A DNA stretch of 40,430 bases from NCBI GenBank assembly GCA_902373545.1, contig CABKMZ010000012.1, positions 1 to 40,430 on the forward strand. Direction: 5' to 3'. Position 1 is the stretch's first letter. Every line of letters begins with the position of its first letter. The notes beneath the pieces are model-generated. The model made no database searches. It saw only the letters and a program-made list of their open reading frames with translations, and was not told where the DNA came from. The position numbers and the translations under genes are program-made. The stretch comes from an uncultured Actinomyces sp. Its GTDB lineage: Bacteria; Actinomycetota; Actinomycetes; Actinomycetales; Actinomycetaceae. This document shows positions 15,499 to 38,580 of the stretch, piece after piece.

Positions 15499-15576
15499 GG
15501 ATAGGTTAGGCGCTTGCGGATAGGTTACTAAGCTATCCGCGTCGTCATAACCTATCCATGACATCGTTACCTATCC
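15499..15576. repeat. Phased palindromic array, copy 1 (GGATAGGTTA, 19-bp period)
   Basis: Five copies of a 10-mer: GGATAGGTTA at 15499 and 15518, then inverted TAAGCTATCC at 15529, TAACCTATCC at 15548 and TTACCTATCC at 15567. Copies in the same orientation start exactly 19 bases apart, with 9-base linkers. The two inner opposed copies are 1 base apart and can fold as GCGGATAG...CTATCCGC. A second array with the same geometry lies at 38503-38580. No gene overlaps it. Confidence 0.85.
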
Positions 15577-15825
15577 ACGAGTGCACGCTACGAGGCTCAC
15601 TTCGACTCTCCTCCACATTGACGCGCCAAGGCTCCCACGGCGCCAGCCACTCTCGCCTCACGCCTCGTCGGCACGGATTGTCTACACGGGCACCCGCACA
15701 AACACAGCGACTGTCGCTGCTAACCCGACAGGTGGCCCCCTGGGCCCCACGATGCGCACGTTAACCCGATAGGTGGTGGGGTAGGCGGGGGTGCCCATAC
15801 TCCACTCGTAGGGTTTAGCTGCGCA
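15577..15825. other. Gene-free stretch with TAACCCGAYAGGTGG motifs
   Basis: No credible gene. TAACCCGACAGGTGG (15721-15735) and TAACCCGATAGGTGG (15762-15776) are direct repeats 41 bases apart; a related inverted piece, CCACCTGT, lies at 15843-15850. They adjoin a transposase remnant and may be decayed insertion-sequence ends. Confidence 0.45.
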
Positions 15826-16026
15826 TCAAGGGGTTAATACCGCCACCTGTGTGGCCGTACTGCCCCAATACCCGGGACACATCACATCAAGATGCTTGGC
15901 CGTGGAATTAATGCGGCTAACCTGGCTGATATTACACAGGGAGCAGCGCCATCGCTGCGCCCCTGACGCTGAGTGCCCATACCTGGTCATCACTGGCCCG
16001 CACGCCGGGCATTTGGGGGTATTCAT
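15826..16026 (-). pseudogene. IS1249-like transposase N-terminal remnant
   Basis: From the ATG at 16026 the frame gives a zinc-ribbon start: CPACGPVMTRYGHSASGAQRWRC, CSLCN, then SRINSTAKHLDVM. This is the N-terminus of IS1249/IS256-group-like transposases, which begin CPxCGxxMxxxGxxxxGxQRWRC. After about residue 48 the similarity stops and the frame ends at 15826, so more than 300 residues, including the catalytic DDE region, are missing. The start codon lies in a perfect inverted repeat, GGGGGTAT-TC-ATACCCCC (16015-16032). I take it as a dead fragment; the exact IS family is a judgement by eye. Confidence 0.65.
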
Positions 16027-16041
16027 ACCCCCACGATGAAA

Positions 16042-16203
16042 CAACCACCTTCAATGTGGCTTTTCCCGCACCAGCAAGCCGAAAAGTCGCTACAAAACCA
16101 ACATGTTTTGTCCATCCTTCAAGTTGGCTCCCACCAACTTCAACACCGACTTTCCCGTACCAACAAGCCAAAAAGGCACAATACAACCAACACGTTTTTG
16201 GCC
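16042..16203. repeat. Degenerate tandem repeat, two ~72-bp units
   Basis: Unit one (16042-16113) and unit two (16132-16203) align at roughly 70% by eye. Shared landmarks are CTTTCCCGYACCARCAAGCC and ACAAMACCAACAYGTTTTTG-like tails. Between them AAGTTGG...CCAACTT can form a hairpin. They lie just upstream of the transposase remnant and may be old element ends. Confidence 0.6.
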
Positions 16204-16258
16204 TGTAACCCTAGCGTCCTATCACCTAGAGACGCCTCGTCACGACAAAGAGGGAGCG

Positions 16259-16276
16259 AGGCCCGCTTCCGGGCCT
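16259..16276. terminator. Small hairpin, possible terminator
   Basis: AGGCCCG (16259-16265) and CGGGCCT (16270-16276) form a perfect 7-bp stem with loop CTTC; TCTGACGGTTGATTATTT follows on the plus strand. No gene clearly ends here, so its function is uncertain. Nothing else is recognisable in 16204-16406. Confidence 0.35.
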
Positions 16277-16406
16277 TCTGACGGTTGATTATTTCACAAC
16301 TAGCCCAGGGGGAATCCTCGCTCCACACACGAGAGTATCAAGTGTTTCGCGCAAGACGCGCGTGCGCCACCAGGCGGCACAACAGCACACCAGCTAGTGT
16401 CGACGC

Positions 16407-16667
16407 ATGGACCACGACACAGTGACGGCGTTTGTTGAAGACGCCATCGAAGATCTCGAGCAGCGCAACGCGCTCGAGGAAGTTGAATACCTGCGTATGA
16501 TGCTCGAGTGCGACGGCCCCGACGTTGACGGCGCAGTCTCGTCGCTCGTCAAATACGGCGCGGTCACGGTCGCCTGGGTTGAGCGGCTCGCAGCGATCAA
16601 CGAAGAAGCGGCGGGATTCTTCGACGAAGAACTAGCAGAACTGCGCGAAGGGCTCTCAGGCGCCTAG
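16407..16667 (+). CDS. Small acidic helical protein of unknown function
   Basis: 86 aa, strongly acidic, predicted all-helical: MDHDTVTAFVEDAIEDLEQRN and later EEAAGFFDEELAELREGLSG. No membrane segment, Cys pair or known motif. No Shine-Dalgarno precedes the ATG, but TAGTGT seven bases upstream could be a -10 hexamer for a leaderless message, common in actinobacteria. Codon use looks genuine (GC-rich third positions). It converges on the tmRNA terminator. Function not recognised. Confidence 0.65.
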   Translation: MDHDTVTAFVEDAIEDLEQRNALEEVEYLRMMLECDGPDVDGAVSSLVKYGAVTVAWVERLAAINEEAAGFFDEELAELREGLSGA

Positions 16668-16709
16668 GCTCACTTCACGCCAAAGCGGAGCGCACAAAAC
16701 GCAAACAAA

Positions 16710-16736
16710 CCCCGGGCTTCCAGCGGAAGCCCGGGG
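16710..16736 (-). terminator. Rho-independent terminator of tmRNA
   Basis: A perfect 12-bp stem: CCCCGGGCTTCC (16710-16721) and GGAAGCCCGGGG (16725-16736) with a 3-base loop. Reading the minus strand, TTTGTTTGCG follows. It lies six bases past the CCA end of tmRNA and may also stop the convergent plus-strand gene. Confidence 0.88.
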
Positions 16737-16741
16737 TGGGA

Positions 16742-17119
16742 TGGTGGAGATGGGGGGAATCGAACCCCCGTCCAATAGTCGGCCCCGAATTCTTCTCCGA
16801 GCGCAGTCTACGGTTTTATTTCTCGGCCCCCGGCATTGCGTAGACTCACCGCCGGATGGGCTCAGTTGATTGAGTGTCGGAGGCGCCCCACCAACATGGG
16901 CGACTCCCAGTGGCTCCCTAGACGACGCCAGACACCGGGCCGGAAGCAACTCCCGGGCTGACGGACTAAAGGTTCAGGCTGCGATATCAGGCAGCGAGAA
17001 CGTAGTCGGTGCGATTCTGTTCGGCACCTATTGGTTTGCACGCATCGTTTACGAGTTGAGCGTACATTCTCGGCTCGCTTCACTTCGATCGACGACCACT
17101 GTCGAAACCGATCATCCCC
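16742..17119 (-). ncRNA. ssrA: tmRNA (ssrA)
   Basis: About 378 nt. The 5' end GGGGATG (complement of 17113-17119) pairs with CATCTCC near the 3' end, followed by A and encoded CCA (16742-16744). The TpsiC arm reads GGGTTCGATTCCCCCC and the 5' part carries the typical GGTTTCGACAG. The tag frame, complement of 16987-17025, encodes AEQNRTDYVLAA followed by TGA; TAGGT immediately precedes the resume codon GCC, resembling the TAGTC before the resume codon in E. coli. tmRNA with SmpB frees ribosomes stalled on broken mRNA and tags the product for proteolysis. SmpB is encoded 5.3 kb upstream on the same strand. Confidence 0.95.
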
Positions 17120-17174
17120 TCTTGAGTTTTCAACTCCCCGACGCCCAGCGTTACCGCAGACCGTCGGACACATC

Positions 17175-17204
17175 AGCATACAACCATTCCACGTACGCCG
17201 TCAA
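17175..17204 (-). promoter_or_regulatory. Putative tmRNA promoter
   Basis: On the minus strand TTGACG (complement of 17199-17204) and TATGCT (complement of 17175-17180) are 18 bases apart. Transcription would start near 17167, leaving a precursor leader of about 48 bases before the mature 5' end, to be removed by RNase P. Confidence 0.55.
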
Positions 17205-17230
17205 GACAGAAAACCCATCGCACGAGGAAA

Positions 17231-17259
17231 GAGGCCCCCCGCGAACACGCGCAGGCCTC
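17231..17259 (-). terminator. Terminator after the YhgE/Pip gene pair
   Basis: GAGGCC (17231-17236) pairs with GGCCTC (17254-17259), with additional CGCG/CGCG pairing inside. On the minus strand TTTCCTCG follows. It lies 22 bases beyond the stop codon at 17281 and separates the membrane-protein pair from the tmRNA promoter. Confidence 0.6.
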
Positions 17260-17280
17260 GTCCCTACGAGCACCGCCGTC

Positions 17281-19476
17281 CTACAGGAGCTTCGTGGACT
17301 CCAGCTTGGCCACCATCCGCCGATTGCCCCGCACCAGTAATGGGCGCAAAGCCAGCCCCAGGAACGCGGCGAACAGGATGAAGGAAGCGAGGAACCACAT
17401 GGCGTCCGCATACTCGTGCCCCGAGTATCCGGCGATCGACGCACGAAGCGCCGTGATCGCGTGGGTGGCCGGCAGGAACGGGGACACAGACGAGAAGAAG
17501 GGCGGCAAAATTGCCAGCGGGAACGCTCCTCCGGCTCCCGAGATCTGTAGGACCAGCAAGAGCACACCCAGGGCCTTGCCCGCATTCCCGAACGTCGCGA
17601 TCAGCGTGTACATCAAGAACGAGAACACCACAGCCGTCAGCCACAGGGTGCCCATGAACTCCAGGGGGTGGTTGTGTTGAACCTTCAGGAAATACAGGTC
17701 ACCCAGCCCCAGCAGAGTCGCCTGGGCGAGCGCCACCGTCCCGAAAATCAGGTAGCGCCCCAGGTACCCGGCAGACAGGCGGATCGGCGAAGCGGTCAAC
17801 GTCGCGCGCAGCGGATCATCCTCGGCCAGGCCATCAGCGACATTCTCGTCAGTCACGTCGGAGCGGATGGACACAACCATGAGAACGGAGCCGACCCACA
17901 GAGCCAGGATCGTATACATGGGTGCCATCTGAGAGCCGAAGTTCGCCACCGGATAGACGGGGATCGTATCGACGCCGACGGGGGCGGCGATGGCCGCGGC
18001 CAACGCCTCGGGATTGTTCCCGATGACGTCCTTCAGGGTCGTCAGATCGCCGCTGTCCTGCGCTTCCTTGATGGAGTTGTGCAGCGAGTCCATCTTGCCG
18101 GCAGAATCTCGCATATCCGTTGCCGCAGAGGTCAAACTGTCACGCAAGCTCGTGAGCTTCTCGCGCGCACTGTCGCTGCCGTCCGAGGCAGTGGACGTCG
18201 AGGAGGACAAGCTGGAGCGCGCAGACGACAGAGAACTCTGGGCCGACGACAGGGTTGATGCCAGTGAGTCGAGTTTCGGCTTCAGATCGTTGTCGTAGTC
18301 TGCGGACAGGTCGTCGACGGCCTGGTGCGCGTCGGCAATCAGCGCGGTGATGTTGTCGTGATTGGTTTGCGCGTTCGAGGTCTTCGTGTCGAGGTCGGTA
18401 GCCGCGTCGCGCAGGTTGGTCGCCAGGGTGCGGAGCCGGTCGGCTGCGCTTTGCAGCGTATCCAGGGAGGACTGGGATACGGGAGAACCTGGCATGTCTT
18501 TGAGCGTCTTTTTGATGTCTTCGTACGTGGTCGCGTGCGAGTCCAAGACTCCCGCCTGCGACCGCAGCGACGCGGAGGCATCGGCTGTACTGGTTGACGC
18601 CGTGGAATACACGTTCTCCACGGAGGTGGACAGCGTGTCCAGCTCTGTCTTGGATGAGTCGATGGCGCTCGAGACAGAGGCAATCGCTCCCGTGGCTGCA
18701 GCGGTCAGACCGGTTACCCCGGAGTCGGCGCTGCCGACAGCTGACTGCGCGGAGGATTTCGCGGCCCCCACGCCGGACACGAGTGTGGTCGTCGAATCGA
18801 TGAGAGTCAGCGAAGAGCTGGCCAACGCAGCGTACGCATCCGCACTGTCGGCGGCGGTCCGCAGGCGCATAGCCACCAACTGCACGCGGTTATCGAGCTT
18901 GGTGACGGCCCCCGTTGCGGTCGTCGAGGACAGTGCGTCCCCCATCGATGAGGCCGTATCCAGCGCAACCTCGGCGAGAGTCTGTGCGAAGGTCTGGTTC
19001 ACCTGCGCGCTGACGGCCTCAGCGCCCTGGCCAGCGAGCTTGGGGCTAATGCCGTTCTTCTTCTCGTTGACGTAGTAGGTCATGGGGGCGCTAGACACCT
19101 CGCCGTCGAAGAAGGTCAGCATATCCTTCGAGAACTCCTCGGGGATGACGATGGCCGCGTAATAGTCGCCGGAGCGCGTCCCTTCGATGGCCTCGTCCTC
19201 CGTGGCAATCACCCAGTCAAAGTTGTCGTTCTTTCGCAGCGCGGAGACGACCTGGTCACCGATGTTGATGTGCAGAGGCACCAGATCGGACTTGAAGCCC
19301 ACATCCGTGTTCGCGATAGCGATGCGCAGGGAACGCGTGTTGCCGAAGGGATCCCAGGACGCAGCAACGTTGAACCACGTAAACAGCGAGGGGATGACGA
19401 TCAGTCCAAAGGTCACGACGACGGCAATCAGGGAGCGACGCGCGCGGCGCAGGTCCGCGCGGTAGATAGCCCACAT
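17281..19476 (-). CDS. YhgE/Pip-family membrane protein (second of pair)
   Basis: 731 aa. N-terminal membrane segment (AVVVTFGLIVIPSLFTWFN), then the YhgE/Pip signature NVAASWDPFGNTRSLRIAIANTD and YYVNEKKNGISPKLAG. A long Ser/Ala/Thr/Asp-rich coiled region (about 180-480) follows, then five to six C-terminal membrane segments of the ABC-2-permease type (LGVLLLVLQISGAGGAFPLAILP). Relatives include phage infection protein Pip and the ESX-associated EsaA; the outer coiled region is exposed. The ATG at 19476 lies five bases after the upstream paralogue's stop codon, so the two are translationally coupled and probably form a heteromer. Role in transport or phage adsorption is inferred from the family. 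Confidence 0.9.
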   Translation of the reverse strand: MWAIYRADLRRARRSLIAVVVTFGLIVIPSLFTWFNVAASWDPFGNTRSLRIAIANTDVGFKSDLVPLHINIGDQVVSALRKNDNFDWVIATEDEAIEGTRSGDYYAAIVIPEEFSKDMLTFFDGEVSSAPMTYYVNEKKNGISPKLAGQGAEAVSAQVNQTFAQTLAEVALDTASSMGDALSSTTATGAVTKLDNRVQLVAMRLRTAADSADAYAALASSSLTLIDSTTTLVSGVGAAKSSAQSAVGSADSGVTGLTAAATGAIASVSSAIDSSKTELDTLSTSVENVYSTASTSTADASASLRSQAGVLDSHATTYEDIKKTLKDMPGSPVSQSSLDTLQSAADRLRTLATNLRDAATDLDTKTSNAQTNHDNITALIADAHQAVDDLSADYDNDLKPKLDSLASTLSSAQSSLSSARSSLSSSTSTASDGSDSAREKLTSLRDSLTSAATDMRDSAGKMDSLHNSIKEAQDSGDLTTLKDVIGNNPEALAAAIAAPVGVDTIPVYPVANFGSQMAPMYTILALWVGSVLMVVSIRSDVTDENVADGLAEDDPLRATLTASPIRLSAGYLGRYLIFGTVALAQATLLGLGDLYFLKVQHNHPLEFMGTLWLTAVVFSFLMYTLIATFGNAGKALGVLLLVLQISGAGGAFPLAILPPFFSSVSPFLPATHAITALRASIAGYSGHEYADAMWFLASFILFAAFLGLALRPLLVRGNRRMVAKLESTKLL

Positions 19477-19481
19477 GGTTC

Positions 19482-22361
19482 TCACTTCGCGCCCTCCTCG
19501 TCCTGGGTACACTCGGCATCCGCTTCATCGCCGAGGCCGGGGTCGGTCTCGGCGATCTCGGCTCCCTCCGCTGACTTGTTCTCATCCGCGAGGCCGGGGT
19601 CGGTCTCGGCGATCTCGGCTCCTTCCGCTGACTTGTTCTCATCCGCGAGGCCGGGGTCGGCCTCGGCGCTCGCCTTCCCCTGCGCGGAGGGGGCGGTGTC
19701 GGCGGAGTCCGGGCAGGCCTCGTCCTCGGACTCCTCGCTCACATCACTGCCGTGCTCGGAGTCGTACTGTGCGAGGGATGCCGCCAGGGCAGAGGAAATC
19801 GACGCACTCACGGCGGCAGCACCCAGAGCGATACGCGAGCGGGCGCCCTTGATGCGGCGGGTCAGCAGCGAACGCACATCGCTCTCGTCCATGGCACCGA
19901 GCAGCTGCTGACGCTCGAGCGCCTCGCGCAGGTACTGCAAGCCGATCAGGAACATGATGACAGCCAGGACCCACACGATCCATGCACCCAGCACAACCGG
20001 TACTTCGGCGGAATTCGTGACCGACAGAACAGCGAGAGCCGCGGGCACGAGAACACCCAGCACAATGGCGCCACGCCTGATGCGCGGGTAGCGGCGCTCG
20101 AAGCGGGCAGCACGCGCGGACACCGACCGCTGGAAACCTTCATGATCGGCCAGCGCCGCAACGATCTGGGTGAGGCGATAGCGGCTGGAGGGAACGCGCG
20201 TCGCCTCGGCCACAAACAGGCCCGAGGACGACAGATCCCGCGTGATCATCGCGTTCAGGTTCACCAGGAAGGGGCGCAGCGCCAGCCCAATGACGAATGC
20301 GAGCAGCGTGTGAATGCCGAGCGCCCCCAGTGCCGAGAAGTACTCATGCCGGTAGAAGCCTGCGACCGTCTCACGCATCGCGTTAATGCCGTAGGTGAAG
20401 GGAAACAGCGGGTGCAGGAAGCGGAAGAAGGACGGCAGCATCTCGATCGGGTACAGGCCGGCGGAGCCGGGAATCTGCACGACCATGATGATGACGCACA
20501 GCCCCTTGCCGATGTGCTGGAAGCACGTCGCGAGCATGTAGACGATCGAGACATAGACCAGCGAGATGATCATCGACGTCCCCACGAACGCTGGGCGCGA
20601 CACGGTCTGCACGCCGATCACGAGAACACCGATCGACACGACAAGCGCCTGGATGATGCCGAAGAATGCCAGCAACATCCACCTGCCCATGTACTTAGCA
20701 GCCGAGGAAGTCGGGCCGATCTCCTCTTCGTCAACATCGAGCTTGATGAGAAGAACGAGGGAGAACGCGCCGATCCACAGCGCCAGGTTCGTAAACAGGG
20801 GTGCCATAGCCGACCCGTAGGCGGCGACCGGGAACACCGTCTGCGTCTGGATCGAGGTCGGCGACGCCATGAAGGAGGCGACCGATTCTGCGTTGGTCCC
20901 CAGCGATGTTGCCAGGTCACGCAACGTGTTCGACGATGCGATCGACGAGATATCCGTCGAGACAGTATCCAGGTCCGTCTTAATCGCGTCCGCGTTAGTG
21001 GCGCTATTCGACGTGGCGCTCTTCGTATCATCGAGCAGCGAATCCAACTGGTCGAGCAGCATCGACACATCGTCGCGTTGGCTGCGCAGGGTGTCGAGCG
21101 AGGAACGCATCGATGAGGAGGCACTCGAAAAATCATCGATGGCCGCCGAGAGTGTGGGAACCTCGCCGCTCACGCCCGTTCGCGCGTTCGATACAGCAGT
21201 CTGCACGGAACTGGCAGCGGTCGATGCGGAGGACAGAGCCGTCGAAATCGACGTCGAGGACGTGGACAGGTCCGTGTTCAGCGTCGTCAGGTCGGTAATC
21301 GCGGTCGACAGCGACGTGTTGTTGTTCGTCAGATCCGTCAAGGCGGTGCCCACGCCAGGAAGATTCCCCACCCCCGCCGTGTCCAGGTCACTGAGGACCG
21401 TACCGACCGTCGTGTTGATCGAGTTGCCCTCCACAAGCAGGCCGTCGAGCCTGCCCGTTGCGCCCTGCACGGCACCGTCGAGGCTGCCCGCGTCGGTCGA
21501 CAGGCCGGCGAGCGCATCCGACGTATTGGTCGATAGACCATCCAGAACCGACCCCATGTCGGCGGAAAAATCAGCCAGCGAGGTACGAGCGTCGGTCACC
21601 AGCGCGTCGGCCGTGTCCAGCGATGTCGACAGGTCGTCGGCCGCGGTATCGAGCTCCCCCAGCGTCGTACGAGCCGAGGCCACGGAATCCTTCGCGGAGT
21701 CAATCGTCTCGCTCATCCCGGACAGGGTGTCCGACGCGTTCTGTACCTTCGTCGATGCCTCCCCGAGTGATGTCACCACGTCTGCACGCGCAGTGTCGGC
21801 CTGATCCGCGATGCTCACTCCGGCCTCGGACGCCTTCTCGGACAGAACCTTTGCGACGGTGGACACGAACGTCGCGTTGATCTGCCGATCCAACGCCGTC
21901 GCGCCCGCCCCCGTGACCTTCGGAGCCACCGCGTTGTTCTTCTCGTTGACGTAGTACTGGATGTTCGGCTTGACGTACGTACCGTCAACAATGCCAGTCA
22001 GATCGGAAGAGAACGAGGCCGGGATAATGAAAGCGGCATAGGAATCACCGCGCTCGACCTCAGCCAGGGCCTCGTCCGCACTCACGAGGTGCCAGCCCAG
22101 CTGATCGTTTTGTTTCAGTTGTGACGCCAGCATTGCACCAACGTTAATGGTGCCTAGACTGTCCTTCGTTGCACCCTCGTCCTCGTTGGCTACGGCCACG
22201 CGAATCTGCGACGTATTGGCATAGGGATCCCAGAATCCCGCGATGTTGAACCACGCGTAGAAAGCGGGCACGAACGCCATACCGATGATGACAATCCACG
22301 CGGCCGGAACACGCACCAGCCTCAGAAGATCACGACGAAAAATCCTGATGGAACCTCGCAC
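19482..22361 (-). CDS. YhgE/Pip-family membrane protein with acidic repeat tail (first of pair)
   Basis: 959 aa with a GTG start at 22361; AGAAGG lies eight bases upstream. Same plan as its partner: membrane anchor, FNIAGFWDPYANTSQIRVAVANED, YYVNEKNNAVAPKVTG, a long Ser/Thr/Ala/Asp-rich coiled ectodomain (about 170-500), and C-terminal ABC-2-like segments including VIIMVVQIPGSAGLYPIEMLP. It differs in an additional C-terminal half: about 250 residues with two more membrane segments (GAIVLGVLVPAALAVLSV, VVLGAWIVWVLAVIMFLIGL) and a cytoplasmic acidic tail made of 19-residue repeats. Upstream is smpB (18-base gap), so it may be co-transcribed with it. Family is clear; substrate is not. Confidence 0.9.
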   Translation of the reverse strand: MRGSIRIFRRDLLRLVRVPAAWIVIIGMAFVPAFYAWFNIAGFWDPYANTSQIRVAVANEDEGATKDSLGTINVGAMLASQLKQNDQLGWHLVSADEALAEVERGDSYAAFIIPASFSSDLTGIVDGTYVKPNIQYYVNEKNNAVAPKVTGAGATALDRQINATFVSTVAKVLSEKASEAGVSIADQADTARADVVTSLGEASTKVQNASDTLSGMSETIDSAKDSVASARTTLGELDTAADDLSTSLDTADALVTDARTSLADFSADMGSVLDGLSTNTSDALAGLSTDAGSLDGAVQGATGRLDGLLVEGNSINTTVGTVLSDLDTAGVGNLPGVGTALTDLTNNNTSLSTAITDLTTLNTDLSTSSTSISTALSSASTAASSVQTAVSNARTGVSGEVPTLSAAIDDFSSASSSMRSSLDTLRSQRDDVSMLLDQLDSLLDDTKSATSNSATNADAIKTDLDTVSTDISSIASSNTLRDLATSLGTNAESVASFMASPTSIQTQTVFPVAAYGSAMAPLFTNLALWIGAFSLVLLIKLDVDEEEIGPTSSAAKYMGRWMLLAFFGIIQALVVSIGVLVIGVQTVSRPAFVGTSMIISLVYVSIVYMLATCFQHIGKGLCVIIMVVQIPGSAGLYPIEMLPSFFRFLHPLFPFTYGINAMRETVAGFYRHEYFSALGALGIHTLLAFVIGLALRPFLVNLNAMITRDLSSSGLFVAEATRVPSSRYRLTQIVAALADHEGFQRSVSARAARFERRYPRIRRGAIVLGVLVPAALAVLSVTNSAEVPVVLGAWIVWVLAVIMFLIGLQYLREALERQQLLGAMDESDVRSLLTRRIKGARSRIALGAAAVSASISSALAASLAQYDSEHGSDVSEESEDEACPDSADTAPSAQGKASAEADPGLADENKSAEGAEIAETDPGLADENKSAEGAEIAETDPGLGDEADAECTQDEEGAK
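19533..19666. repeat. In-frame 57-bp tandem repeat in the YhgE/Pip tail
   Basis: Two near-identical 57-bp units (19533-19589 and 19590-19646; the second differs by single bases) and a partial third from 19647. Each encodes DPGLADENKSAEGAEIAET. Multiples of three keep the frame, so copy number could vary between strains and change tail length without disrupting the protein. Confidence 0.9.
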
Positions 22362-22379
22362 GTAATCGCCTTCTTTCCC

Positions 22380-22907
22380 TTACCGGCGGGCCTGCTTCAC
22401 GTAGCGGCGCATCGCGCGCTCGGCCTCGCGCTGATCCTGCTTCTCGCGCAGGGCCTGGCGCTTATCCCATTCCTGCTTGCCCTTAGCCAGGGCGATCTCA
22501 ACCTTGACGCGGCCCCCGATGAAGTACAGCTCCAGGGGCACAATCGTGTAGCCCTTCGCGGCCACGCGGTCCTGCATGCGGTCGATCTCGGCGCGGTGCA
22601 GCAGCAGCTTGCGCTTGCGCGTGGGCGCGTGGTTCGTCCACGAGCCCTGCGAGTACAGGGGGATGTTGGCGCCGTACAGCCACGCCTCTCCCCCGTTGAT
22701 CTCGACCCAGGCGTCGACGAGGGACGCGCGGCCCATGCGCAGCGCCTTCACCTCGGTACCCATGAGGGCCAGGCCGGCCTCCCACGTGTCCTCAATCGTG
22801 TAGTCGTGGCGAGCCTTCTTGTTACGGGCGATCGTCTTCTTCGCGTCGGAGGCAGCCTTGGCGCGCTGCCCCTCCGTGGTCTTGGGCTTCTTCCATTCCT
22901 TGGGCAT
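22380..22907 (-). CDS. smpB: SsrA-binding protein SmpB
   Basis: 175 aa, slightly longer than the usual ~155-160 because of an N-terminal Lys/Ala-rich extension. The OB-fold core is evident: IARNKKARHDYTIEDTWEAGLAL, then GTEVKALRMGRASLVDAWVEI, and the HAPTRKRKLLLHRAEID region. The C-terminal tail KGKQEWDKRQALREKQDQREAERAMRRYVK is the basic helix that enters the mRNA channel of stalled ribosomes. SmpB binds tmRNA, encoded 5.3 kb downstream on the same strand. It lies after the ftsEX-peptidase genes but behind a strong terminator, so it likely has its own promoter in the 43-base gap or depends on read-through. Confidence 0.97.
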   Translation of the reverse strand: MPKEWKKPKTTEGQRAKAASDAKKTIARNKKARHDYTIEDTWEAGLALMGTEVKALRMGRASLVDAWVEINGGEAWLYGANIPLYSQGSWTNHAPTRKRKLLLHRAEIDRMQDRVAAKGYTIVPLELYFIGGRVKVEIALAKGKQEWDKRQALREKQDQREAERAMRRYVKQARR

Positions 22908-22950
22908 GACCTGCCTCCCTCCACACTCGTATTCCTGCTCTGACAGGAAA

Positions 22951-22980
22951 GACCCCCGCAGCGCAAACGCTACGAGGGTC
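22951..22980 (-). terminator. Rho-independent terminator after the M23 peptidase gene
   Basis: A 13-bp stem (with two G-U pairs on the transcribed strand) closes a TTTG loop; TTTCCTGTC follows on the minus strand. It lies 14 bases past the peptidase stop codon and ends the ftsE-ftsX-peptidase transcript. Confidence 0.82.
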
Positions 22981-22994
22981 CATCCTAACCCGGA

Positions 22995-24269: not shown

Positions 24270-24274
24270 GCGAC

Positions 24275-25189: not shown

Positions 25190-25194
25190 TACCT

Positions 25195-28726: not shown

Positions 28727-28790
28727 TTACCAGCGATTCAGTGGGCGTCCCACGATGTGACCGTCGCGCATAACACCTTTTTGGCACAGA

Positions 28791-30144: not shown

Positions 30145-30170
30145 GTGTGTTCCTTTCTTGTCAATGTGTC

Positions 30171-31067: not shown

Positions 31068-31942
31068 CGCGTCCCTCCCAGGTTTCTCGGATCGGAGCTG
31101 AGTCGCCCGATAGCTTTCATCGCCAGGTAGGCGATGACGCACACGCCCGCGCCGGCGCACAGGACGGCGATGCCTCCGGGAGAGTTCCAGACGTTGGCGC
31201 TCGCGCCGCCTCCGGAGAGCAAGAGGAGGACGGCCCACGGGGCGGCCAGGCCCAGGCGTGCGGCGCCGACGGTCCAGGATTGGCGTGCTTCGAGTTCCCC
31301 GCGCACGCGCGCGTCCTCGCGCAGGAGGGTGGCGAGGTCTTGAAGCAGGCGCGTCAGGTCGGCGCCGCCGACAGATCGGGCGACGCGCAGGGCCTCGACG
31401 ATGCGGTCGGCGACGGGGTCCGCCACCTCGTCTTTCATTCGATCCAAGGCGGAGGCGAATCGCCCGTTGGCACTGTAGTCGCGCGAGAACGCCTCGAAGG
31501 CGAAGCGCACGGGCGCGGGTCCCTCGTCGGCGAGGTCGCACAGGACTTGAGGCAGCGAGGTTCCGGCACGCACGCCGGAGACCATCGCGTCGATGACTTC
31601 TGGCCATGCGGCCCGCACTGTCTTGGCGCGCGCGGCGACGCGGGAGACGACCCAGGCGTAGGGCAGGAAAGCCACGCCCACCGAGACGATCAGGGCGACC
31701 GGCCAGGCCCCCGTGACAGCCAGGACGACGAGCGCGACGATCGCGCCGAGGATCAGGCTGAGCACGACGAGGCGCGCGGCGCTCAGCCCTGGGACGCGGG
31801 CGCGGGCGACGTCCTCGCGCAGGCGCTTGCCCGGCCTCCAGGGCGCAGAGGTGCGCGGGGGTGTGAACCACGGGGACAGTGCCAGGACCAGGCCGATGCC
31901 GAAGACGAGTCCGCACACGAGCTCGATCACAGCGGCCCCCAT
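31064..31942 (-). CDS. tadB: Tad pilus inner-membrane protein TadB (T2SSF)
   Basis: 292 aa. Membrane segments at the N-terminus (VIELVCGLVFGIGLVLAL) and middle (LVVLSLILGAIVALVVLAVTG), then a T2SSF domain (WPEVIDAMVSGVRAGTSLPQVL; VGGADLTRLLQDLATLLREDARVRGELEARQSW) and two closing helices. Partner of TadC in the platform moved by the TadA ATPase. It overlaps the tadA end by 16 bases. Confidence 0.9.
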   Translation of the reverse strand: MGAAVIELVCGLVFGIGLVLALSPWFTPPRTSAPWRPGKRLREDVARARVPGLSAARLVVLSLILGAIVALVVLAVTGAWPVALIVSVGVAFLPYAWVVSRVAARAKTVRAAWPEVIDAMVSGVRAGTSLPQVLCDLADEGPAPVRFAFEAFSRDYSANGRFASALDRMKDEVADPVADRIVEALRVARSVGGADLTRLLQDLATLLREDARVRGELEARQSWTVGAARLGLAAPWAVLLLLSGGGASANVWNSPGGIAVLCAGAGVCVIAYLAMKAIGRLSSDPRNLGGTR

Positions 31943-33141
31943 TCCAAGAGCGAGGACAGGTCGAAGCCCGCCGCGGCGAAACGATCGTGCAGGTCCAGAC
32001 TCCCCGCGCCTCGTTCACACCTGTGCCCGTCGAAGGTGAAGAGCGTGGCCGTCTCGATCCGGTTGCCCTCGACTCGTCCAGGCACGGCCAGGACCTCGGC
32101 GACGAAGCGGCTACCCTCCCGGCTTCGCTCGACGTGACACACAAGGTCGATGGACGAGGCCAGGGTCGGGGTCACGAATCCCGTCGTCACGTTTTCGCCC
32201 GCCAGGAGGGGCAGGATCGAGAGCTTGTCCAGGGCCTCGCGCGCCGAGTTCGCGTGCACGGTCGCCATGCCGGGCACCCCCGCGTTGAGGGCCACGAGGA
32301 GGTCAAGGGCTTCGGGGCCTCGGACCTCTCCGACGATCAAGTATTCGGGGCGCATACGCAGGGATTCGCGTACGAGGTCGCGCAACGTGATCTCGCCCGT
32401 GCCCTCGGCGGCCGCCGGGCGAGTCTGCATGGCGACATGATCCCAGTTCGCCAGGCCCAGCTCGAAGACCTCCTCGCAGGAGATGACGCGCCGCGAACGC
32501 GGCAGCTCCCCGGCGAGAGCGCGCAACAGCGTCGTCTTGCCCGCCTGTGTGCCGCCCGAGACGAGGACGGACAGCCCCACGCACACGGCGGCGGCCAGGA
32601 AGTCGCGCATCGGCGGGGGCACCATGTCGACGGCCACCAGATCGTCCAGGGTGCGGGCGCGCTGGATGTGCTTGCGGATGTTGACGCTCCAGGACTGGCC
32701 GGTCACCGGCGGGATGACGACGTGGAGGCGCTCTCCCCCGGCCAGCATGGCATCCACAAAGGGGCTGGACAGGTCGAGGCGGCGACCCGAATGGTGCAGC
32801 ATCCGCTCCACGAGTGTGCGCACGTCCTCGTCGGTGAGGATGAGGCTCGTCAGCTCGGCGACGCCGCCTCGGGCCACGAACACGCGCGACGCCGAGTTGA
32901 TCCAGATTTCCTCCACGCTGGGGTCGTCCATGAGGATCTGGAGGGGGCCCAGGCCGCAGATATCGTCCATGAGGTCCGCTTCGACCTGCTCGCGCTGGGT
33001 GGGCAGCATGTCGGGGGCGTGGGCGTCAATGGCGCGGTGAATGAGGGCGCGCACGGCCCTCGGGTCTCGCGCGGCATCGATGCCGCCCGCGGCCAACCCC
33101 TCTCGCACCCGCGCTGCGAGCGCACGTGTCACGGCTTCCAT
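31927..33141 (-). CDS. tadA: Tad pilus assembly ATPase TadA (CpaF family)
   Basis: 404 aa. Secretion-ATPase motifs: Walker A GGTQAGKTT with Lys202, Asp box VISCEEVFELG, Walker B LIVGEVRGPEALDLLVALNAG, and His box GMATVHANSAREALDKL. The N-terminal helical part (DICGLGPLQILMDDPSVEEIWIN) is typical of CpaF/TadA. It powers Flp pilus extension and retraction from the cytosolic face. AGGAGG precedes the ATG. First gene of tadA-tadB-tadC-flp-tadE; no TadZ-like or prepilin peptidase gene lies next to it. Gap 33142-33283 is a divergent promoter region with the plus-strand gene. Confidence 0.95.
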   Translation of the reverse strand: MEAVTRALAARVREGLAAGGIDAARDPRAVRALIHRAIDAHAPDMLPTQREQVEADLMDDICGLGPLQILMDDPSVEEIWINSASRVFVARGGVAELTSLILTDEDVRTLVERMLHHSGRRLDLSSPFVDAMLAGGERLHVVIPPVTGQSWSVNIRKHIQRARTLDDLVAVDMVPPPMRDFLAAAVCVGLSVLVSGGTQAGKTTLLRALAGELPRSRRVISCEEVFELGLANWDHVAMQTRPAAAEGTGEITLRDLVRESLRMRPEYLIVGEVRGPEALDLLVALNAGVPGMATVHANSAREALDKLSILPLLAGENVTTGFVTPTLASSIDLVCHVERSREGSRFVAEVLAVPGRVEGNRIETATLFTFDGHRCERGAGSLDLHDRFAAAGFDLSSLLEWGPL

Positions 33142-33283
33142 CCCTGAGCCTCCTCGCTACAGCCAAAGCCAATGTGTCGAAAGTAACAGGGTTGTTCGGA
33201 AAGGAGCAAACCGCTGTCCCACAATCGGGCGCCCACCCGCGCGGGGATGCGCACCCGGGCCGCAGGCGCGATACATTCGAAGA

Positions 33284-34504
33284 ATGACAAGCCACAAGAG
33301 CGCCCTCGAACTAGCCGCGCTGGCCACCTCCGCCATGCCCGGGTTGCGCGTGAGCGCGCTGCGCCCGCCGACCTACACCGACGAGCTGGCCTCCGTCACC
33401 GGCATCGAAGACGTCGGCGGCAACCGCTGGATCGTCACCTGCCCCCACGAGGAGGTCTCCGGCCCCGCCCTCGAGGCCACCTCGGGGATCCTCGACCGCC
33501 TCGGCCAGGCCTACGAGCACGACTACATTCCCTTCGACGTCCCACGCCTAGCCGGACAGGCCAAAATCCGCGGCGGAGGGACCGTGTACGTGCACCGCGA
33601 TCCAGGCGGCCGCGCCCCCACGGAGCGAGACCTCGAGACGGATCCGCTGCTACCCGCGTCGCTCGGGCGCGCGCTCGCGGCCCTGCACAACCTGCCGGAA
33701 ACCGTGTTCTCGGCGATCGGCCTGCCCTCCTACACGGCGATGGAGTGCCGCGACCGCAACCTCGCTCTGCTCAACGAGGCCGCCCGCCAGGTCACGATCC
33801 CGCCGTCCCTGTGGAGCCGCTGGGAGGCCGCCCTGGAGGACGTATCCCTGTGGCGTTTCCCCTCCGCCCCCATTCACGGGGACATTCAGGAACGCAGCCT
33901 GTCCGTCAAGCGCGGCTCGGTCGTCGCTATCGGCGGATGGACCAGCGCGCACGTGGGTGACCCTGCCCTGGACATCGCGTGGATTCAGGCCAGCGCATCG
34001 GACGCGTTCCTCGAGCGTTTCCGCGAGACCTACGGCCACGAGCGCCGCGCCATCGACCTGCATGTCTTCACGCGCGCCCAACTGCTCAGCGAGATTGCGC
34101 TCGTGCGGTGGCTGGTCCACGGCCTACACGCCGAGGACTCCTCCATCGTCGACGACGCCCGCGCGATGCTCACCGACCTGGCCATCGACCTCGACGGCGA
34201 GCCACTACTGCCGTCGCACGCGACCTCCGTGGGGTCCGCCTCCATCGACGAGGCCTCCCCTGCCTCGACCGATTCCGTTTCCTCCCCCGACTCCTCCCGG
34301 GGCGCCACCTCCGGCTCTCGCCAGGTCAAGTGGAGGGACCGGGCCGCTGCGGCCGCCAAGGACGAGCCCGAGACGGGCGCGTCGACGCAGCCCGTGTCGC
34401 GCACAACGTCGGCCGTAGCCCGCAAGCTCGCCGAGGGCGAAGTGGATCCGGCAGCACCAACCGAGCGCCTGCGCCTGGGCCCCGACGGGACGCTCATCCC
34501 GTAA
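33284..34504 (+). CDS. Aminoglycoside phosphotransferase-fold protein, probably inactive kinase
   Basis: 406 aa from the ATG at 33284. The APH/choline-kinase fold is recognised from the helix LGRALAALHNLPE, the Brenner-like motif PIHGDIQERSLSV and the segment VGDPALDIAWI. Two catalytic positions look lost: the motif HGDxxxxN has Ser205 for the metal-binding Asn (His198-Gly199-Asp200), and the IDW acid position reads IGGW (Gly217). So it may bind a ligand or nucleotide without phosphorylating. The C-terminal 110 residues are low-complexity Ser/Pro/Ala-rich and probably disordered. Divergent from tadA and convergent with the DUF2304 gene. Orthologue role is unknown; the longer plus-strand frame from 33041 overlaps tadA and is rejected. 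Confidence 0.82.
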   Translation: MTSHKSALELAALATSAMPGLRVSALRPPTYTDELASVTGIEDVGGNRWIVTCPHEEVSGPALEATSGILDRLGQAYEHDYIPFDVPRLAGQAKIRGGGTVYVHRDPGGRAPTERDLETDPLLPASLGRALAALHNLPETVFSAIGLPSYTAMECRDRNLALLNEAARQVTIPPSLWSRWEAALEDVSLWRFPSAPIHGDIQERSLSVKRGSVVAIGGWTSAHVGDPALDIAWIQASASDAFLERFRETYGHERRAIDLHVFTRAQLLSEIALVRWLVHGLHAEDSSIVDDARAMLTDLAIDLDGEPLLPSHATSVGSASIDEASPASTDSVSSPDSSRGATSGSRQVKWRDRAAAAAKDEPETGASTQPVSRTTSAVARKLAEGEVDPAAPTERLRLGPDGTLIP

Positions 34505-34602
34505 GCAGCCCTGTCGCCGCGGCCACCGCCCAGCCCGCCCAGGCGCGCCGCCGCACCCACCCGCGTCCCGCCACAGGACGCACCCAACGACACACACCGG
34601 GA

Positions 34603-34627
34603 CCCGTCAGGCGTTCAACCTGACGGG
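34603..34627. terminator. Bidirectional terminator between convergent genes
   Basis: CCCGTCAGG (34603-34611) and CCTGACGGG (34619-34627) form a perfect 9-bp stem with a 7-base loop between the APH-fold gene (ends 34504) and the convergent DUF2304 gene (ends 34674). Confidence 0.75.
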
Positions 34628-34673
34628 CCCCGGCCTCGTCAATGGAAGCGATCAACGGCTCACACGTGCCGCC

Positions 34674-35111
34674 TCAGCGCTTCTTCTTGCCTTTCTTGCC
34701 CCGCGAGGAGGGCTTCTCAGGGGTGGGCTGCCCCGACGAGGAGGCGCGCCCCTCAAGGGCATCGAGGCGGCGCTCCAAGCGCTCGACCTGGAGGCGCAGG
34801 ATCGCGGCCTCCTCGGTGAGGCGCCGACGGTCCTCATCTCCGCGCGAAAGGTCGACCGAGAACCGCAGGGAGAGCAGCAGCAGGACGACGCCCGCCACGA
34901 AGAATCCCAGGTTCAGCGGAACGACGACGCCCAACTGGAAGGCGGTCCACTTCAGGATCGGCGGGAAGAGGGAGAGCAGCGCCGTGCAGAAGGCAATCCA
35001 GTACCACCACAGGCCGTAGCGTTCCTTCATTCCCGAGTTGCGCATCTTGACGAACACCATCACCAGGATGATGCACGCGAAGACGACTCCGAGCACGTAC
35101 GTGGGACTCAT
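34674..35111 (-). CDS. DUF2304 membrane protein
   Basis: 145 aa. Three membrane segments (YVLGVVFACIILVMVFV; WYWIAFCTALLSLFPPIL; LGVVVPLNLGFFVAGVVLLLLSL) precede a cytosolic coiled coil (EEAAILRLQVERLERRLDALEG) and a very basic tail (SSRGKKGKKKR). DUF2304 proteins are commonly encoded beside GT2 dolichol-phosphate-mannose-synthase-like enzymes, as here, where start and upstream stop overlap (ATGA at 35108-35111). A role in anchoring or assisting the glycosyltransferase is inferred. Confidence 0.9.
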   Translation of the reverse strand: MSPTYVLGVVFACIILVMVFVKMRNSGMKERYGLWWYWIAFCTALLSLFPPILKWTAFQLGVVVPLNLGFFVAGVVLLLLSLRFSVDLSRGDEDRRRLTEEAAILRLQVERLERRLDALEGRASSSGQPTPEKPSSRGKKGKKKR

Positions 35112-35863
35112 GCGTTCTCCTCCGCGGCCGGGGCGACCTCTTCGCCGGGGCGGGTCAGGGCCACGGCGAGCGCGAGGGTGGCTCGCACCAGGAAGAGCGC
35201 CGACTTGATCGGGTTGTGCGACGGCTCGCCGCCGGCGCGTGGGTGCATCTGCACGCCGACCTCACGCACGACCAGGTGAGAGCGGGCCGCGATGACGAGA
35301 GCGCCGATCGTGTCCCCCAGGTACTCTGCCGGGTAGTTGTGAGCGAAGAGCGACAGGGCGCGCGGGCCGTAGAGCTTGAACCCGCTGGTCGTGTCGGTCA
35401 GCTTCGTCGTACACACGCGCGAGAGGATGAACGAGAACAGGTTCATCGCCCATTTGCGCGGGCCTCGCGCCTGATAGTCACCCTTGCCGGCGAAACGCGA
35501 CCCGATGACGACGTCGGCGTGCTCGGCCGACGCCATGTCGACGAGCGTTTCGATTTCCGTGGGGTCGTGCTGGCCATCCGCATCAAGCTGGCAGGCGTAC
35601 TCGTAGCCCATGCGCCGCGCGTACTGGAAGCCGGCGCGCATGGCACCGCCGACCCCCAGGTTGATCGGCAGGTCGAGCACGGCCACGCCAGCGTCGCGCG
35701 CGATCTGCGCGGTAGCGTCCGTGGACCCATCAGACACGACCAGGATGTCCGCGAAGGACGGCTTTTCGACCTTCACAGACTCCAGGACGCCTCCCAGCAC
35801 TGCTTCTTCATTCCACGCGGGAATGACGATCAGCAGGCGGGACTTAGCACTCGGGCGCGACAC
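35108..35863 (-). CDS. Family 2 glycosyltransferase (DPM1-like)
   Basis: 251 aa with a GTG start placed directly after the rmlA stop (TGAGTG). The GT-A fold shows LIVIPAWNEEAVLG, VVSDGSTDAT, NLGVGGAMRAGFQYA and the DxD-like QLDADGQHDP, then VIGSRF and the conserved DTTSGFKLYG. No membrane segment is evident. It probably charges a polyprenyl-phosphate carrier with a sugar for surface glycan. Co-transcribed with rmlA and the DUF2304 gene. Confidence 0.93.
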   Translation of the reverse strand: MSRPSAKSRLLIVIPAWNEEAVLGGVLESVKVEKPSFADILVVSDGSTDATAQIARDAGVAVLDLPINLGVGGAMRAGFQYARRMGYEYACQLDADGQHDPTEIETLVDMASAEHADVVIGSRFAGKGDYQARGPRKWAMNLFSFILSRVCTTKLTDTTSGFKLYGPRALSLFAHNYPAEYLGDTIGALVIAARSHLVVREVGVQMHPRAGGEPSHNPIKSALFLVRATLALAVALTRPGEEVAPAAEENA

Positions 35864-36736
35864 TCAGTTGTCCTCACGGTTGAGCAGCTCGAGCAGGTAG
35901 GCTCCGTAGCCGGACTTAACCAGTGGCTCGGCGCGCTGGCGCAGGCCCTCGTCGTCGATGAAGCCCATGCGCCACGCGACCTCTTCGGGGGCGCCGATCT
36001 TCATGCCCTGGCGGGCCTCGACCGTACGCACGAAGGCGGTGGCGTCAGCGAGCGAGTCGAAGGTGCCGGTATCCAGCCACGCGGTGCCGCGCGGGAGGAC
36101 CTCAACCTTGAGCTTGCCGGCCTCGAGGTAGGCGCGGTTAACGTCTGTGATCTCGTATTCGCCGCGCGCGCTGGGCTTGAGGTTGCGGGCGATGTCGACC
36201 ACGTCGTTGTCGTAGAAGTACAGGCCGGGAACCGCGTAGTTCGACTTGGGCTTCTCGGGCTTTTCTTCGATCGAGAGGGCGTTGAATTCCTCGTCGAACT
36301 CGACGACGCCGTACTCGCGCGGGTTGGATACGTGGTAGGCGAAGACCGCACCACCGTCGGGGTCGACGTGGCGACGCAGCTGCGTACCCATGCCGGGGCC
36401 GTAGAAGATGTTGTCGCCCAGGACCAGCGCTGCGGCATCGTTGCCGACATGATCCGCGCCGAGCACGAAGGCCTGCGCCAGGCCGTTGGGCTCGTGCTGG
36501 ACGGCGTAGGAGATGCTCACGCCGAGCTGGCTGCCGTCACCGAGCAGGCGGTGGAACGACGGGGCGTCGTGCGGCGTGGTGATCACCAGAACGTCCGAGA
36601 TGCCGGCCAGCATGAGGGTCGACAGCGGGTAGTAGATCATCGGCTTGTCGTAGACGGGGACCAGCTGCTTCGATGTCCCCAGCGTGATCGGGTTCAGTCG
36701 GGTGCCGGACCCGCCTGCCAGGATGATGCCTTTCAT
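35864..36736 (-). CDS. rmlA: Glucose-1-phosphate thymidylyltransferase RmlA
   Basis: 290 aa, the family's usual length, from the ATG at 36736 with GGAGG five bases upstream; the frame to 36787 is a non-conserved extension. Signature [53 protein letters not shown] and the downstream [23 protein letters not shown]. It makes dTDP-glucose, the first step to dTDP-L-rhamnose, which the divergent rmlCD gene completes. First gene of rmlA-GT2-DUF2304. Confidence 0.97.
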
Positions 36737-36933
36737 GTTGCCTCCGCTTCCTGGCGCGTCCTCGTGTGGGTCGCGCATCATTGACAATTATCCCTATGTG
36801 ACGCTATTTTTCCACAACTGTGGCCTCCCGCACGCCGATGGGACGCAGTACCCTCACCGGTGGTGCGCAGATCGGCTAGAATTTGTATGGATTGTTACGT
36901 CCGCACGATACCCACGCACATAGAGGAAGAACA
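36737..36933. promoter_or_regulatory. Divergent promoter region rmlA / rmlCD
   Basis: This 197-base gap is AT-rich around 36780-36815. On the minus strand GATAAT (near 36790-36795) is a plausible -10 for rmlA. On the plus strand TAGAAT (near 36876) could be the -10 for rmlCD, about 58 bases before its start. Matching -35 hexamers are weak. Confidence 0.4.
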
Positions 36934-38361
36934 ATGGCGCCCACTGCTAAGCCCCTGGGGATCACGACTACGCCGATCCCCGGCTTTTTGCGCATCGACC
37001 TGACTGTTCACGGCGATAACCGAGGCTGGTTCAAGGAGAACTGGCAGCGCGAGAAGATGGTCGCGCTGGGCCTGCCGGATTTTCAGCCGGTGCAGAACAA
37101 CATTTCTTTCAACGACGAGGTCGGGGTGACGCGAGGCATTCACGCGGAGCCGTGGGACAAGTTCGTGTCTGTCGCCACCGGCCGTGTGTTCGGCGCGTGG
37201 GTGGATCTGCGCGAGGGGCCCTCGTTTGGCACGGTGTACACGACGATCATCGATCCGGGCGTGGCGGTGTTCGTCCCCAAGGGCGTGGGTAACTCGTATC
37301 AGACGCTGGAGCCGAATACTGCCTACACGTACCTGGTCAACGATCACTGGTCGCCGGACGCGAAGTACACGTTCTTGAACCTGGCGGACGAGACGGCGGC
37401 CGTGGATTGGCCGATCCCGCTGGATCGCGCGATCCTCTCGGATAAGGACAAGGCGCACCCGCGCATGGCAGACGTGACGCCCTTCCCCGCGCCCACTCCG
37501 GCGGGTCGCCGCGCGCTCGTGACGGGCGCGAATGGTCAGCTGGGCCGCGAGCTCATGCGCGTCCTGCCCGAGGCTGGCTTCACGGTGACGGGCGTGGACC
37601 TGCCGGAGGTATCCATCTCGAACGCTGAGCAGGTGGCGGCCCTGCCGTGGGACGAGATCGACGTGGTCATTAACGCGGCCGCGTGGACGAACGTGGATGG
37701 CGCGGAGACCCCGGAGGGACGCCGCTCGACGTGGGAGGCGAACTCGACGGGTCCGGCGGTTCTGGCTCGCGAGGCGACGGCGCACGGCGCGACGCTCGTG
37801 CACATTTCGACGGAGTACGTCTTCGATGGCACGCAGGATGTGCACGTCGAGGACGAGGCCCCCTCCCCCTTGAGCGCGTACGGCCAGTCCAAGGCGGGTG
37901 GCGACGCGGCTGTTGCCTCGACGCCCAAGCACTACATCGTGCGCACGTCCTGGGTGGTGGGCGACGGCAAGAACTTCATCAAGACCATGGCGTCGCTGGC
38001 CGATCGCGGCATCTCCCCGTCGGTCGTGTCGGACCAGGTGGGCCGCCTGACGTTCACGTCGGATCTGGCCCGTGGCATCATTCACCTGCTGACGAATGAT
38101 GTGCCATTCGGCATCTACAACCTGTCGGGCGAGGGCCCGGTCATGAGCTGGGCGCAGGTCGCCAAGCGCGTCTTCGAACTGTGCGGCCGCAACCCCGAGG
38201 ATGTCACCGAGGTGACCACGGAGGAGTACTTCGCGGGCCGCGAGGCTGCGCCTCGTCCCCTGTCCTCGACGCTGGACCTGTCGAAGATCGAGGCCACGGG
38301 CTTCACCCCCGAGGATTCCTCCAAGCGCATCGACACCTACGTGGCGTCCCTGCGCGGCTGA
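36934..38361 (+). CDS. rmlCD: Bifunctional RmlC-RmlD (dTDP-rhamnose epimerase/reductase)
   Basis: 475 aa from the ATG at 36934, after GAGGAAG. Residues 1-185 are RmlC, a cupin 3,5-epimerase: RGWFKENWQREKM, RGIHAEPWDKFVSVATGRVFGAWVDLR with His70, and VPKGVGNSYQTLEPNTAYTYLVNDHW. Residues about 190-475 are RmlD, an SDR reductase: TGANGQLGRELM, the Tyr316/Lys320 pair (SAYGQSKAGGD), STEYVFDG and RTSWVVGDGKNF. The fusion joins the last two steps of dTDP-L-rhamnose synthesis; it is known in Actinomycetaceae and Bifidobacterium. RmlB, the 4,6-dehydratase, is not in the window. The terminator follows 19 bases after the stop. Confidence 0.96.
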   Translation: MAPTAKPLGITTTPIPGFLRIDLTVHGDNRGWFKENWQREKMVALGLPDFQPVQNNISFNDEVGVTRGIHAEPWDKFVSVATGRVFGAWVDLREGPSFGTVYTTIIDPGVAVFVPKGVGNSYQTLEPNTAYTYLVNDHWSPDAKYTFLNLADETAAVDWPIPLDRAILSDKDKAHPRMADVTPFPAPTPAGRRALVTGANGQLGRELMRVLPEAGFTVTGVDLPEVSISNAEQVAALPWDEIDVVINAAAWTNVDGAETPEGRRSTWEANSTGPAVLAREATAHGATLVHISTEYVFDGTQDVHVEDEAPSPLSAYGQSKAGGDAAVASTPKHYIVRTSWVVGDGKNFIKTMASLADRGISPSVVSDQVGRLTFTSDLARGIIHLLTNDVPFGIYNLSGEGPVMSWAQVAKRVFELCGRNPEDVTEVTTEEYFAGREAAPRPLSSTLDLSKIEATGFTPEDSSKRIDTYVASLRG

Positions 38362-38380
38362 TCACCGCACTAACGAGGCA

Positions 38381-38410
38381 GGCCCCGGGCACCGACAGGT
38401 GCTCGGGGCC
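38381..38410 (+). terminator. Terminator after rmlCD
   Basis: GGCCCCGGGCACC (38381-38393) and GGTGCTCGGGGCC (38398-38410) form a 13-bp stem with one mismatch and loop GACA; GTTGCTATG follows. Confidence 0.8.
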
Positions 38411-38502
38411 GTTGCTATGCCCGCGTAGCCGGGGCTGCCCGCGGCAATCTCGGGGACTCGCGGCGACGAGGCCGTGGTTGGTTCGCCGGGGCGCGCGCAC
38501 GC

Positions 38503-38580
38503 GGATAGGTAACGAACACGCGGATAGCTTATTAACCTATCCGCAAGCGCATAACCTATCCGTCTGCGAACAACCTATCC
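38503..38580. repeat. Phased palindromic array, copy 2 (GGATAGGTTA, 19-bp period)
   Basis: GGATAGGTAA at 38503 and GGATAGCTTA at 38522, then inverted TAACCTATCC at 38533 and 38552 and CAACCTATCC at 38571. Spacing is 19, 11, 19, 19 bases, identical to the array at 15499-15576. The reverse complement of this copy shares the core with copy 1: GCGCTTGCGGATAGGTTA then TAAGCTATCCGCGT. Relative to that core, this copy has an additional repeat on the opposite side. It lies between the rmlCD terminator and the CRISPR array. Confidence 0.85.

Follow-up and report, generated by a model that had tools for sequence, protein, structure and literature searches.

The window analysed here is a 40,430-nucleotide stretch of DNA from an uncultured Actinomyces sp. 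(assembly GCA_902373545.1, contig CABKMZ010000012.1, positions 1 to 40,430), and it carries two arrays of a short motif arranged in mirror image around a single base. Ten copies with no more than one mismatch were found in the window, compared with 0.35 expected and a maximum of 3 in 100 dinucleotide shuffles. The original prediction had described two arrays of five copies with shared offsets, and all ten copies were recovered where it had located them. The arrays and their nearest annotated neighbours are as follows.

Array 1: 15499..15576, no strand; two direct and three inverted copies, 19-bp phase, 1-bp centre at 15528
Array 1 copy 1: 15499..15508, plus strand; motif match, GGATAGGTTA
Array 1 copy 2: 15518..15527, plus strand; motif match, GGATAGGTTA, inner left
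Array 1 copy 3: 15529..15538, minus strand; motif match, GGATAGCTTA, inner right, bears the polar C
Array 1 copy 4: 15548..15557, minus strand; motif match, GGATAGGTTA
Array 1 copy 5: 15567..15576, minus strand; motif match, GGATAGGTAA
Array 2: 38503..38580, no strand; two direct and three inverted copies, 19-bp phase, 1-bp centre at 38532
Array 2 copy 1: 38503..38512, plus strand; motif match, GGATAGGTAA
Array 2 copy 2: 38522..38531, plus strand; motif match, GGATAGCTTA, inner left, bears the polar C
Array 2 copy 3: 38533..38542, minus strand; motif match, GGATAGGTTA, inner right
Array 2 copy 4: 38552..38561, minus strand; motif match, GGATAGGTTA
Array 2 copy 5: 38571..38580, minus strand; motif match, GGATAGGTTG
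Gene with dTDP-rhamnose epimerase and RmlD domains: 36934..38361, plus strand; context, array 2 begins 141 bp beyond the gene end
Small open reading frame (ORF) left of array 1: 14992..15381, minus strand; context, no Pfam match

Copy offsets are identical in the two arrays (0, 19, 30, 49 and 68), and the odd copy, GGATAGCTTA, adjoins the centre in both. Read with array 2 on the opposite strand, array 1 has 2 + 3 copies and array 2 has 3 + 2 copies about that centre, which bears out the earlier claim that the arrays are mutually inverted and that each has an extra copy on a different side.

A Genome-Wide Family of Arrays

A scan of public genomes for the array centre returned 94 stretches, 89 of them in six assemblies: Schaalia odontolytica FDAARGOS_732, Actinomyces HPA0247, A. 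bouchesdurhonensis, Schaalia ORNL0103, and those labelled Sanguibacter and Xylanimonas. In the genus, 12 of 35 genomes matched at up to two mismatches, ten of them having between 14 and 46 centres and the other two a single one; at family level, 12 of 200 drawn genomes matched at up to one mismatch, and these were the same twelve. The flanks of the window arrays align with loci of the Schaalia odontolytica group at 84–97% identity over long pieces and about 70% over shorter ones, which places the window in this group. The window arrays are two members of a genome-wide family in this group, whose array-bearing members are mouth bacteria. Viral contigs searched with two exact patterns gave no match, nor did plasmids and phages searched with array 1. 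No description of these arrays was found among the papers listed by a literature search, from whose scope subscription literature was largely excluded.

Two of the six, named Sanguibacter keddieii 250_SKED and Xylanimonas cellulosilytica 352_XCEL (loci L002-L004, L007, L019 and others), look like members of the Schaalia odontolytica group. Because they align closely with the others, within the same genus group, these labels look wrong.

Across 110 distinct arrays, the true unit is 19 bp and reads roughly nnnnCATCC-GGATAGGTTA. The 10-bp motif with 9-bp linker originally proposed thus had the phase exactly right, but the conserved motif is longer, reading (C)ATCC on its 5' side. Within the unit, GGATAG is almost invariant, the preceding ATCC is conserved, the GTTA part differs with place in the array, and about four positions are weakly constrained; conservation stops about 5 bp outside the outermost motif. 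Left copies point right and right copies point left, with a single base between them. Copy number ranges from 3 to 12, and 3 + 3 is the commonest form (49 of the 112 arrays found, before two duplicates were dropped from the anatomy set and one from the facing-linker set). The arrays are also polar: GGATAGC occurs in just one inner copy in 77 of 111.

Same-strand neighbours are 19 bp apart in 420 of 434 cases and 38 bp apart in 11, and the random genome-wide spacing that the original prediction had named as grounds for abandoning it is not seen. Facing pairs share one common spacing in 108 of 113 cases. The loci were chosen by an exact centre and the arrays found through their own pattern; the facing-pair figure is therefore partly built in, while the 19-bp figure is not. 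Both counts are without five loci (L016, L030, L049, L079 and L092) that are single centres in unrelated genomes or metagenome-assembled genomes.

Placement among Genes

None of the 112 arrays lies within a called gene. The gene caller was home-made and misses low-GC genes, such as a 363-aa ORF at L052 (2720-3811); since this ORF overlaps an array by 16 bp, the statement holds for called genes only. At the same locus (2366-3892), two arrays of opposite polarity bracket the ORF, which by eye resembles DUF559 proteins and has its end inside the second array; HPA0247 has a single array there (L050).

Among the 82 arrays with both neighbours called, 39 lie between convergent genes, compared with 21.0 expected by base pairs, and 4 lie between divergent genes, compared with 15.7. 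Within 100 bp of a gene start, we found 0 of 43 arrays, as opposed to 14% of random positions in the same gaps. Orthologous loci share ancestry, and these figures are therefore effect sizes and not strict tests. This placement argues against promoters. Of roughly 200 neighbouring genes, 17 were scanned; 14 had Pfam matches, mostly to metabolism, translation, transport and the cell wall, and 3 had none. The genes scanned share no common pathway; none of the 14 matches was to a transposase or DNA-binding regulator, and no rep gene was found among the 17.

Two further features lie near the window arrays. About 125 bp beyond array 2 begins an array resembling clustered regularly interspaced short palindromic repeats (CRISPR), in which a repeat of roughly 37 bp, GTCTTAATGCACCTTATGGYGCTCCGTGCTTTCTGAC, recurs about 17 times in steps of 72-77 bp (38650-39920). 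A transposase gene (HTH_Tnp_1, 39991-40302) follows right after the last repeat, which is incomplete, and the truncation may be due to an insertion. A transfer-messenger RNA (tmRNA) gene with the tag AEQNRTDYVLAA lies on the minus strand at 16742-17119, about 1.2 kb from array 1, and was the sole Rfam match in the window at gathering thresholds.

Conservation at Orthologous Sites

To compare motif and linkers with their surroundings, we aligned orthologous sites. Between the genes for ribosomal protein L9 (rplI) and a penicillin-binding protein, pairwise identity over eight genomes was 97.0% in the motif, 83.4% in the linkers, 65.2% in the nearest 60 bp and 65-68% in the flanks. The number of units shifts in 19-bp steps, and the linkers have no other gaps. 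These orthologs were collected with a query that included flanks, and the identity set is without G022, which is array-free at this site, and G003. The same order of motif, linker and flank identity was obtained in the L003 set (0.894, 0.698 and 0.574) and the L020 set (0.937, 0.816 and 0.710). In the L019 set (0.988, 0.921 and 0.922), the motif is again highest and the linkers equal the flanks.

Dialects and Other Facing Arrays

Two sister genomes, G011 and G012, lack any GGATAG centre and carry 27 and 34 GGGGYAGG(TT/CA)A centres, respectively; no GGGGYAGG centre was found in the other 33 genus genomes. These arrays have a CATT front, a 1-bp centre and a 20-bp phase in 34 of 40 same-strand neighbours (16 loci). 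In genome G009, the lattice is 19 bp for GTTTGGCGG and 22 bp for TRATGCTCTCGNCG, and in one case a TRATGCTCTCGNCG array occupies the gap that holds a GGATAG array in other species. Facing arrays with 34- and 52-bp phases are also present.

The layout was additionally sought with any motif, using a four-copy scan of loci and a nine-base seed scan at narrower and then wider settings. The seed scan yielded 9 hits in 400 kb of G009 (some stretches chosen for known arrays), 11 in 385 kb of G012 and 4 in 240 kb of G010 (both at wider settings), and 3 in 260 kb of G001 (narrower settings, at which masked N stretches crowded the output). It yielded none in 160 kb of G019 or 120 kb of G100 and one, a tandem repeat, in 120 kb of G056; shuffled G009 and shuffled G012 gave none.

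Several further repeats were seen individually. The L025 locus (L130, L131, L128, L132, L133) has a facing array of four TGTTACAAACGTCGTCAA copies (2 + 2) with a phase of about 52 bp, in which, by eye, the motif is constant and the linkers divergent between G001 and G022. In the G012 samples L242, L244, L249, L252 and L254, CGCACACAAGGGC forms facing arrays of 34-bp phase at five places in 385 kb. A repeat of HPA0247, GGAATTGCATGCGAAA, lies near many arrays (L010, L032, L040, L041, L047, L053, L069, L077, L083); its ORNL0103 counterpart is GGAATTACGTGCGA (L026, L029, L057, L060), possibly a second dialect pair.

A Putative Chromosomal DNA-Binding Protein

We tentatively favour, at somewhat short of an even chance, the reading that the arrays are host-maintained composite binding sites for a putative sequence-specific chromosomal DNA-binding protein. 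Protein binding is indicated because the motif and lattice are constrained and the linkers less so. The original prediction had likewise pointed to protein binding; its constant motif, variable linker and fixed phase recur across genomes and species, consistent with that general proposal, whereas its specific labels fare less well, as described below. The 21-bp inverted centre would hold a dimer, from which the block could be extended outward by one protomer for each 19-bp unit, or about two helical turns. Binding would likely be cooperative, such that a typical array of six units would become a defined nucleoprotein block. This block may serve the host as a chromosome organiser or anchor, or may insulate convergent transcription units from each other.

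A number of observations weigh against this proposal. Finding arrays by their pattern favours intact ones. Array positions turn over. The rplI site is array-free in G022, and the array of G003 has stayed next to the other gene, with about 7 kb separating it from rplI. Of 10 array-bearing genomes compared at the L025 locus, 4 show arrays, 1 shows a decayed array and the remaining 5 are array-free. Among the loci compared, 0 of 23 GGGGYAGG arrays occupy a clear orthologous GGATAG site, and for this reason no array has been seen to switch dialect in place; as far as seen, the dialect shift is accompanied by turnover of positions. Finally, non-orthologous arrays of one genome resemble each other. 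Among the matches listed, the best pairs are 90-97% alike over 77-105 bp including the linkers, many pairs are 75-85% alike, and a few matches extend into the flanks (340-760 bp). Arrays so alike at non-orthologous sites indicate that they get copied within genomes.

The distribution along the chromosome provides a lead only. The point opposite dnaA falls inside the largest array-free gap in G001, G017 and G022, not in G010, and in G024 it falls inside the widest gap among the places listed. The gap is statistically weak, which counts against this proposal: the gap-size P values of these related genomes are 0.05 for G001, 0.01 for G017, 0.13 for G022 and 0.24 for G010, and G012 (dnaA near 1.618 Mb) lacks terminus exclusion, with 6 of 29 places in the terminus quarter by hand count. 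The G001 list holds 20 centres, without matches that are direct pairs only (e.g., 2013865 and 2205618), none of which is inside the gap, and rounded sequence lengths were used for G017 and G022. GC skew and four-fold-site skew over sampled stretches gave no usable terminus. A dif-like consensus pattern had one match in five genomes, at 603 kb in G024, far from the antipode.

Alternative Explanations

The main rival to host-maintained arrays is a self-spreading miniature element made of two facing end arrays, whose phased end sites would be bound by a transposase or recombinase supplied from elsewhere; we consider this unlikely, though clearly worth weighing. Array-sized copies occur at unrelated loci of one genome, many with ends about 6 bp or less from those of the array (among the matches listed), orthologous sites in close relatives lack arrays, and in G024 whole arrays appear by eye in tandem. 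The dialects differ in positions, and the facing-array families of the sister genomes, with their other motifs and phases, resemble successive families of elements. In contrast, two comparisons of G001 with G010 made by eye (257 versus 4 bp and 367 versus 14 bp) displayed neither target-site duplication nor clean excision, and the same was true by eye of the L025 locus. The ends are not fixed and the unit number varies. At older sites, the motif and phase have persisted longer than the flanks. The Y1 transposase (PF01797), the only transposase family searched, was found in 0 of 35 genus genomes, a set to which the window's own genome does not belong, while the same profile was positive in 5 of 14 control genomes. 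The fixed terminal inverted repeats of miniature inverted-repeat transposable elements were not seen, arrays having 3 to 12 units. The earlier suggestion of miniature-element ends is thereby weakened, as the few empty sites read have no target duplication, yet array-sized copies do recur elsewhere. The array remnants of a known insertion sequence (IS) that the original prediction had allowed for did not emerge either: no IS end was recognised, in a search limited to the Y1 transposase family.

It is improbable that the arrays act as RNA, forming, when transcribed from either side, nested long hairpins with a role in terminating, protecting or processing the 3' ends of transcripts from convergent genes. 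The arrays are placed toward gene 3' ends, and all three that were folded were much more stable than shuffles (z of -5.1, -4.6 and -8.6), but good folding is expected of any palindrome. Facing linkers were less alike than in shuffles, with a mean of 1.52 of 5 versus 2.06 (186 pairs; 0 of 500 shuffles as low), a shuffled value inflated by the mixed orientation of symmetric arrays; this low likeness is the opposite of stem covariation. The one-sided GGATAGC copy breaks a stem pair, array arms are often unequal, and by eye the rplI array lies between, and beyond, two terminator-like hairpins. An RNA stem is thus disfavoured both by the facing linkers and by the asymmetry of the centre.

Very improbable, in our view, is a role as operators for an ordinary transcription factor, such as a DtxR-like regulator with an AGGTTA half-site. 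As given in an excerpt of PMC1382209, the DtxR box is 19 bp, TTAGGTTAG(G/C)CTAACCTAA. The array centre, AGGTTA-n-TAACCT, resembles this box in its half-sites, but its spacer is 1 bp in place of the 3 bp in the same excerpt (PMC1382209), and the arrays stand away from promoters. They avoid gene starts and divergent gaps, and a shared pathway is missing among the neighbours scanned.

We also compared the arrays with recognised classes of chromosomal and mobile sites. The nucleoid-occlusion sites of SlmA and Noc and the matS sites of MatP are single palindromes. Similar to these, the arrays provide tens of chromosomal sites for one (here putative) protein, with an antipode gap in three of four genomes; they differ in having about six units per site, and the gap is statistically weak and missing from G012. 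The arrays may be segregation or nucleoid sites, as first suggested. The palindromic intergenic repeats of enterobacteria, REP/BIME, are associated with RAYT transposases and occur preferentially at 3' ends and in convergent gaps. The arrays too are dispersed, intergenic and palindromic and favour convergent genes. However, they form a rigid 19-bp lattice with variable linkers, as opposed to one conserved hairpin unit, and the Y1 transposase associated with such repeats was not found in the 35 genus genomes. The motif arms of the arrays are complementary and fold, with facing linkers less alike than in shuffles and an asymmetric centre in 77 of 111. Tn402/Tn5053- and Tn7-type ends carry transposase sites of 19 to 22 bp; they share with the arrays phased repeats in opposite orientation at two ends, but the arrays have a 1-bp centre, no cargo and, at the few sites read, no target duplication. 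Plasmid iterons, such as the 19-bp repeats of P1 RepA, are likewise phased direct repeats of about 19-22 bp, whereas the arrays are mirror-image, intergenic and present in tens per chromosome. Given this scatter over chromosomes and the lack of a plasmid match for array 1, the replicon iteron first suggested is unlikely. CRISPR, with direct repeats of about 24-40 bp and spacers of like length, is ruled out as the identity of the arrays by their 19-bp units and mirror symmetry.

Implications

It is conceivable, albeit doubtful, that each Schaalia/Actinomyces species group has its own dialect (GGATAGGTTA; GGGGCAGGTTA; GGGGTAGGCAA) of a new class of chromosomal site. This class would consist of 19- or 20-bp mirror arrays read by a putative fast-evolving protein at tens of sites, mostly between convergent genes, and would organise or insulate the chromosome. 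If the arrays are instead self-spreading, they would represent a class of mobile repeat. If the proposed protein exists, it would be a chromosome-organising or insulating factor to which, to our knowledge, there is no counterpart in Actinobacteria, and the natural shift of dialect, in motif and from a 19- to a 20-bp phase, could provide a model for the joint change of a protein and its many sites.

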